Below, piece by piece: positions 19,083-19,298 of a stretch of 64,000 bases of DNA; position 1 is the first letter of the stretch; each line of letters opens with the position of its first letter. The stretch comes from Saliphagus infecundisoli. Its GTDB lineage: Archaea; Halobacteriota; Halobacteria; Halobacteriales; Natrialbaceae. The stretch spans positions 1 to 64,000 of the forward strand of contig NZ_JAIWHV010000007.1 in NCBI RefSeq assembly GCF_020177375.1, read 5' to 3'. The translations under genes and the position numbers were made by a program. Below the pieces are notes generated by a model. It ran no database searches, was not told the DNA's origin, and worked only from the letters and a program-made list of their open reading frames with translations.

Positions 19083-19153
19083 TGACCGACCTTCAGGAGA
19101 GCGCGCGATTAGGCCTTTCGGAACCTGCAGGCCGCTCGTTTATACGCTGAACA

Positions 19154-19298
19154 GGCGCGTATCCACGCCCTTGAGTGGTCTGCGTAACGTTTGAACACGT
19201 GGTCGTCAAGGCTGGGACCGACGGGACGAGGAGACGCAGTTTGCAGAGCTTGGACGTGCAAAGGTTACGCCAATTACTCCGGGGCGTGGATACGCGCC
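19154..19298 (+). ncRNA. Candidate structured RNA: 145-base long-hairpin locus
   Basis: The outer arms are a perfect 17-base inverted repeat (19154-19170 with 19282-19298). Pairing continues inward in register: 19173-19179 with 19273-19279 (two G-U), 19182-19188 with 19264-19270, 19190-19193 with 19259-19262, 19196-19200 with 19254-19258. That is 40 base pairs separated by small internal loops, leaving a ~53-base apical region. It is not a tRNA, 5S, SRP or RNase P RNA by any signature I can see. A TATA-like element at 19138-19145 is close but would start transcription inside the left arm, so strand and promoter are uncertain. It could instead be the end or remnant of a mobile element. Confidence 0.5.

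Follow-up and report, generated by a model that had tools for sequence, protein, structure and literature searches.

What is the long hairpin that lies between a minus-strand gene and tnpB in Saliphagus infecundisoli, and how did it come to be there? The locus occupies positions 19154−19298 of the window, i.e., the whole stretch of 64,000 nucleotides that was analyzed. On the + strand, these bases are predicted to form a single long hairpin with interruptions (MFE −80.2 kcal/mol, z = −8.5; 200 shuffles had a mean of −50.95 and a standard deviation of 3.43, and none was equally stable), and the minus strand folds likewise (z −7.6). The initial annotation, which drew attention to this hairpin, was right about its coordinates, its perfect 17-base arms (GGCGCGTATCCACGCCC and GGGCGTGGATACGCGCC), and the further helices that continue inward in register. 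It also counted 40 base pairs and took them for one structure: the pairing stands (the prediction nests ∼38 outer pairs), whereas a single evolved structure is contradicted by the existence of empty sites.

A palindrome within a palindrome

Comparison with these unoccupied sites indicates that the hairpin is two nested palindromes of different origins, the outer one formed by the 17-bp arms and the inner one by a 107-bp insert. Contig C18 of the same genome is homologous to the window at 19140−19175 (83%) and again at 19282−20717 (95.3% identity across 1436 bp of the tnpB element), and the insert is the exact break between the two. C18 reads CCACGCCC TTCA GGGCGTGG, and the window reads CCACGCCC TT[107 bp]CG GGGCGTGG. 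The parts of the original hairpin, all on the + strand, are the left arm (19154−19170), TT as the first half of a four-base loop (19171−19172), and, beyond the insert (19173−19279), CG as the second half of the loop (19280−19281; CA in C18 and relatives) and the right arm (19282−19298). An uninterrupted hairpin is also present, in a conserved context, in 10 haloarchaeal contigs, typically as TTATACGCTGAACAGGCGCAATACCACGYCCTTCAGGGCGTGGATACGCGCC. The source of these empty hairpins was an exact scan of genome contigs for the 17-base pattern; the haloarchaeal matches supplied them, and the matches outside the haloarchaea were mostly due to chance. The empty sites, which lack the inner part, show that the 107 bp are an insertion and that the outer palindrome received them in its loop. 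Any element with inverted ends that lands at the center of a palindrome produces, as a consequence, a long continuous hairpin, and this is what the initial annotation saw. A single ancestral structure at the left end of the tnpB element, comprising both sets of helices, would suit their continuity and register in the window, yet this idea is refuted by the empty sites: C18 and the 10 contigs have the outer hairpin but lack the inner part, and the inner part is found alone elsewhere.

To what does the outer palindrome belong? Its uninterrupted occurrence in C18 and in the 10 haloarchaeal contigs identifies it as the left-end hairpin of an IS200/IS605-type element with an open tnpB, located at 19140−20717 on the + strand. 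The left boundary is approximate, and the assignment draws on the C18 homology and on the left-end context kept in the 10 contigs. Two features of IS200/IS605 (tnpB) elements are found in this outer part, namely, the tnpB gene and a near-terminal palindrome at the left end. The gene is an open frame of 419 aa (19406−20665, + strand) with the domains PF01385 and PF07282 and a match to NF040570 (guided_TnpB, 194 bits, cutoff 100); its 3′ end is overlapped by a sot0042 RNA (RF02656; 20541−20708, + strand; 107 bits, gathering score 88). In the IS200/IS605 family, splitting of the left-end hairpin should block recognition by the element's own Y1 transposase. Having split this hairpin, the insert probably immobilizes the tnpB element.

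The left arm deserves a comment of its own. In the window it reads GCGCGTATCC, and in C18 and the 10 haloarchaeal contigs it is GCGCAATACC or near it. Four bases, all within a stretch of five, are unlike those of all relatives, and with these changes, all in the same sense, the left arm has become perfectly complementary to the right one, as if corrected by a hairpin-templated (quasi-palindrome) process.

Then, what is the inner part? It is a non-autonomous element of 107 bp (GAGT...ACTC) with imperfect terminal inverted repeats of ∼25 bp, the left one being GAGTGGTCTGCGTAACGTTTGAA (19173−19195, + strand) and the right one, in its minus-strand reading, GAGTAATTGGCGTAACCTTTGCA (19257−19279). 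The outer 43 bases of the locus are 81% identical to each other, and the terminal pairs are kept across 12 copies. A search of the genome with the 145-base query returned seven further copies, one on C9 with 99% identity and the others on C66, C22, C55, C6, C31, and C26 with 74−81%; most of the matches cover only the query from about bases 16/20 to 126/130, i.e., the inner part alone. The element measures 107 bp in all eight copies, a length that leaves no room for a transposase gene. The surroundings of the copies are unrelated, transposase genes included, and the alignment places each of them apparently at the center of a palindrome, the sequences of these palindromes being all different.

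Could the locus nevertheless encode a novel structured RNA, or a processing stem, transcribed between the flanking minus-strand gene and tnpB? The fold is very stable on both strands, and neighboring tnpB elements are known makers of RNA, as the sot0042 RNA at the 3′ end of this tnpB illustrates. However, insertion is how the structure arose, as the empty sites show, the inner part recurs in unrelated contexts that include transposase genes, and no Rfam match was found inside the hairpin at gathering or relaxed thresholds. In addition, folding of the alignment of 12 diverged copies gave −17.8 kcal/mol for the consensus, the covariation term reaching just −0.61 kcal/mol, and two-sided changes affected 5 of 27 pairs, mostly in single sequences. 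The pairs that are kept are mainly terminal repeats of the transposon type, which a transposase would conserve anyway. The structured-RNA reading of 19154−19298 was rejected on this alignment folding, and an RNA gene or processing stem is highly improbable. The initial annotation had listed these two possibilities together with the remnant of a mobile element; it is the third that survives, in kind, as the inner part is MITE-like. It had also named target duplications as the sign of a MITE. At the window site the duplication is 0 nt, and the MITE-like nature is proven by the empty sites; the proposed sign would have misled because this group of elements makes duplications of 0 or 1 base.

Targets of the insertion

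The next question is whether the palindromes were there before the elements. Eleven insertions were compared with unoccupied homologues from the same genome or from relatives, and the palindrome pre-exists in 11 of 11 alignable empty sites, several of which show, at the junction, exactly the bases of the filled site. The target duplication is 0 nt at eight of these sites (C44/C75, C9:1853, C8, C12, C6:31587, C9:13695, C31, and the window, where the insert sits in the middle of the four-base loop) and 1 nt at three, with one central base duplicated at C26, at C9:19199, and probably also at C9:2941, whose homologues have a diverged loop. The empty copies of C44/C75 and C9:1853 are identical at the junction, as are several of those of C6:31587. 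In some of the zero-duplication cases, the base beside the junction is unlike that of the homologue, so that zero duplication there rests on equal length. A rule by which the duplication equals four minus the loop length failed at C44/C75 (2-nt loop, 0 duplication). Loop parity, with 0 for even and usually 1 for odd loops, fits better, the exception being C12 (5-nt loop, 0 duplication, off center).

The same comparison bears on the idea that the palindromic flanks were made by the insertion itself, e.g., if one flank served as the template for the other, and do not reflect a preference for certain targets. The altered left arm of the window, now a perfect complement of the right arm, is what one would expect in that case, and the flanks of the copy on C36 appear chimeric; set against the palindromes that were already present in all of the alignable empty sites, the idea is hardly credible. 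As for the C36 copy (C36:18058−18210; L176/L226), its right flank resembles the left-flank gene in inverted form, as derived from another copy, and it may be a recombinant between two element-bearing copies.

How general is the preference? Across 40 sites, the palindrome score averaged 7.9 for the paired flanks and 2.9 for mismatched ones, and the observed sum was reached in 0 of 20,000 permutations. One site was then taken out, L177, a supposed 1024-bp element in which a 155-bp MITE had been wrongly paired with an end unrelated to it. Among the 39 left, 23 reach a score of 7 or more and 19 a score of 9 or more, compared with 1.0% and 0.1% of random window positions (n = 6,000), and 19 of the 23 are exactly centered (24% expected). 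Scores of at least 7 were obtained for 16 of the 21 sites of the window's genome alone and for 6 of the 11 full IS630 transposons. About 40% of the sites, most of them from other genomes, stay below a score of 7, and several are without any palindrome; the scoring permits no bulges and consequently undercounts. The target palindromes are IS605-type end hairpins, palindromes inside repeated genes (transposase-like where the frame was read), and intergenic repeats, and because they occur in such varied places, the targets are alike in shape and not in sequence. In short, the MITEs and IS630 transposons of this group tend toward the centers of palindromes of unrelated sequence.

Other families in the same genome were seen along the way. 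A second MITE family, of 153−155 bp, has IS630-type ends and ∼13 copies, most of them at palindrome centers (contigs C2, C6, C8, C9, C12, C14, C22, C36, C44, C66, and C75; L219−L230). The end motif GAGTNNTYNGCGYAACNTTTG occurs 13 + 14 times in the genome, and the reversed control pattern 0 times; the same end type bounds MITE families of 109, 131, 153, and 155 bp, and also ∼1100-bp transposons in related genomes.

A different IS630 subgroup, with ATGAGNRCGAAAAC-like ends and TA target duplications, is also centered in palindromes, here of 10−13 bp, as in the example GACACAGCGACGC TA[IS]TA GCGTCGCTGTGTC. It includes L183 on C50, L181 on C9 (transposase gene at 1480−2589), and L329 in a second genome, G179. 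Given that a TA-duplicating subgroup is found at palindrome centers too, the preference for palindromes may predate the loss of TA.

IS630-type ends and known relatives

Which enzyme could move an element that has no gene of its own? HTH_32, HTH_33, and DDE_3 domains are found in the proteins of longer elements that have these ends, and one of these elements, the transposon L200, has an intact transposase of 348 aa (NF033545, transpos_IS630, 235.5 bits, cutoff 100). The window element shares with the end of L200 20 of 22 bases on its left side and 16 of 22 on its right side. BLAST matches between the ends of the 107-bp family and IS630 extend over 23−27 bp at both ends, the likeness being limited to ∼25 bp, and the 155-bp family matches IS630 ends across 36−63 bp. 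Terminal repeats are thus common to the 107-bp element and to an autonomous IS630 member, as is required of a MITE, and the autonomous elements with these ends encode an IS630 transposase. Insertion at TA with TA duplication is not a feature of the 107-bp group, and for this reason the element is classed not with canonical IS630 but with a variant branch, from which it derives or by which it is moved. In the window's genome, no intact transposase turned up whose element has exactly the ends of the 107-bp family, and mobilization in trans is therefore inferred.

Many of the IS630 elements have a transposase frame broken at the same place, the conserved TTCTTTCGATG (L191, L199, L201, L202, L203, L204, L205, and L216, and also L179 in the window's genome). 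The first frame ends ...FGFFR* and the second goes on ...FDEAWPQPF; L200, L206, and L218 are single-framed. A programmed +1 frameshift at this site is possible.

Elements of comparable habits have been described before. The SMR-A repeats of Haloquadratum walsbyi (HqIRS42, HqIRS43, and HqIRS55; Dyall-Smith et al. 2011) are ∼110 bp long, have prominent terminal inverted repeats, make no target duplication, and lie within near-terminal palindromes of IS605-type elements and PATEs; their ends were unlike those of any transposon, and their mobilization was termed enigmatic (PMC3119063). No later solution to this point emerged from literature searches. The window element is similar in its length of 107 bp, its terminal inverted repeats, its duplication of 0−1 nt, and its position in an IS605-type near-terminal palindrome. 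It differs in that the interior of its family is unrelated, its ends match IS630 transposons, and the family, with eight copies in its own genome, also strikes palindromes outside IS605-type elements. Because of this match of the ends, the 107-bp element would be, by the 2011 scheme, a MITE working like SMR-A. Ends unlike a known transposon, a feature of SMR-A, are found neither in the 107-bp element nor in the Haloquadratum-type repeats that were tested.

These latter repeats came to light when 392 genomes of the order were searched by pattern. They form an independent parallel: in G179, five insertions belonging to two unrelated families of ∼108 bp are located in this very hairpin, between TT and CA (L316, L323, and L326−L328); among the loci read, the true cases of insertion in this hairpin were confined to the window's genome and G179, and the other matches were chance spans. 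One of the two families has ∼30 matches in G179 and four in H. walsbyi J07HQW1. Its ends are matched at 16 of 22 and 17 of 22 bases by those of a 1163-bp IS630 element of G179, TAGTGCTTCACAGAAGATTTAGG and TAGTGATTAACGTAACTTCTG, and each end is best matched to its own partner. For the Haloquadratum-type copies, the permutation test has little force (147 of 20,000), since these copies have for the most part struck the same IS605-type palindromes. In J07HQW1 (G421), a copy of the repeat lies 60 bp from a decayed fragment of an IS630 transposase (C1:2557494−2558059; L330, L336). The match of the ends in G179 speaks for SMR-A elements being MITEs of this IS630 branch.

Would a different enzyme explain the same facts? 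One could think of a single-strand reaction by the Y1 (HUH) transposase that IS200/IS605 elements use, or of a site-specific recombinase, with the likeness to IS630 ends being convergent or merely inherited. The absence of a target duplication and the preference for hairpin loops suit a single-strand mechanism, and many of the victims are IS605-type hairpins. However, both ends of the window element match those of IS630, full IS630 transposons with these ends occupy the same kind of site, the two ends of the Haloquadratum repeats each find their best match in the corresponding end of an IS630 element, and the targets include palindromes unrelated to IS605. Another enzyme is therefore unlikely, and an IS630-family transposase is the preferred candidate.

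Among the members of this family, ISY100 (Tc1/mariner group) inserts almost exclusively at TA, which it duplicates (PMC2170065). The branch considered here has in common with it the transposase family NF033545, with its HTH and DDE_3 domains, and common terminal repeats; it differs by its GAGT or TAGT ends, the lack of a TA requirement, the duplication of 0−1 nt, and the palindrome centers as targets. RUP of Streptococcus pneumoniae is likewise a 107-bp MITE, with IS630-Spn1 as its proposed mobilizer and a tendency to sit in other insertion sequences (PMC2229807); it inserts at TA with duplication, and a preference for palindrome centers is not described in that review. As for PATEs, they are haloarchaeal and tied to IS605-type palindromes (PMC3119063), but they are without terminal inverted repeats and carry palindromes themselves, so that they are the victims and not the invader.

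As regards novelty, the SMR-A-like mode and the IS630 type of mobilizer were each known, and the link between them is new here, as is the quantified rule of insertion at palindrome centers without TA duplication. Neither the rule nor the link between SMR-A and IS630 was found in the literature searched; the classic papers on IS630 targets (Tenzen and colleagues 1990, 1991; cited in PMC2170065) may hold an earlier report of palindromes.

Proposed mechanism and its meaning

The explanation that very probably applies to the locus is that a non-autonomous element of 107 bp with IS630-type ends inserted in mid-loop into the left-end hairpin of a tnpB element, most likely through an IS630-family DDE transposase acting in trans, and that it selects its targets by shape. 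Direct support comes from the repeat family, the empty sites, the targeting of palindromes, the lengths of the duplications, and the sharing of ends with IS630. As to the mechanism, the transposase, whose own transposons have related ends, would act on a pre-existing inverted repeat of any sequence, probably extruded as a hairpin or cruciform, and both transposon ends would be joined at the extruded tip, at or beside the dyad center. The stagger would follow the loop, with even loops giving 0 and odd loops usually 1 nt, and would replace the usual TA duplication. Once the end hairpin is split, the tnpB element would be immobilized.

A broader proposal can be made, and it is offered tentatively, at somewhat less than even confidence. 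A branch of IS630 may have swapped TA for targeting by shape, joining its ends at the tips of extruded hairpins, either cruciform or single-stranded. In that case, nearly any inverted repeat of at least ∼8 bp would be a target, with a duplication that depends on the loop. The orphan SMR-A elements would then be explained as parasites of IS200/IS605 elements, which they silence when they split the end hairpins.

What would all this mean? At the least, a testable answer is now available to the question posed in 2011 of what moves the haloarchaeal SMR-A repeats, and the data suggest a DDE transposase able to choose its target by the shape of DNA. If this is true, shape targeting would join the sequence-, protein-, and RNA-guided modes, and these elements would be a natural probe of extruded hairpins in living cells. 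It would also mean that one mobile element disables another by breaking the very structure that its victim needs to move.
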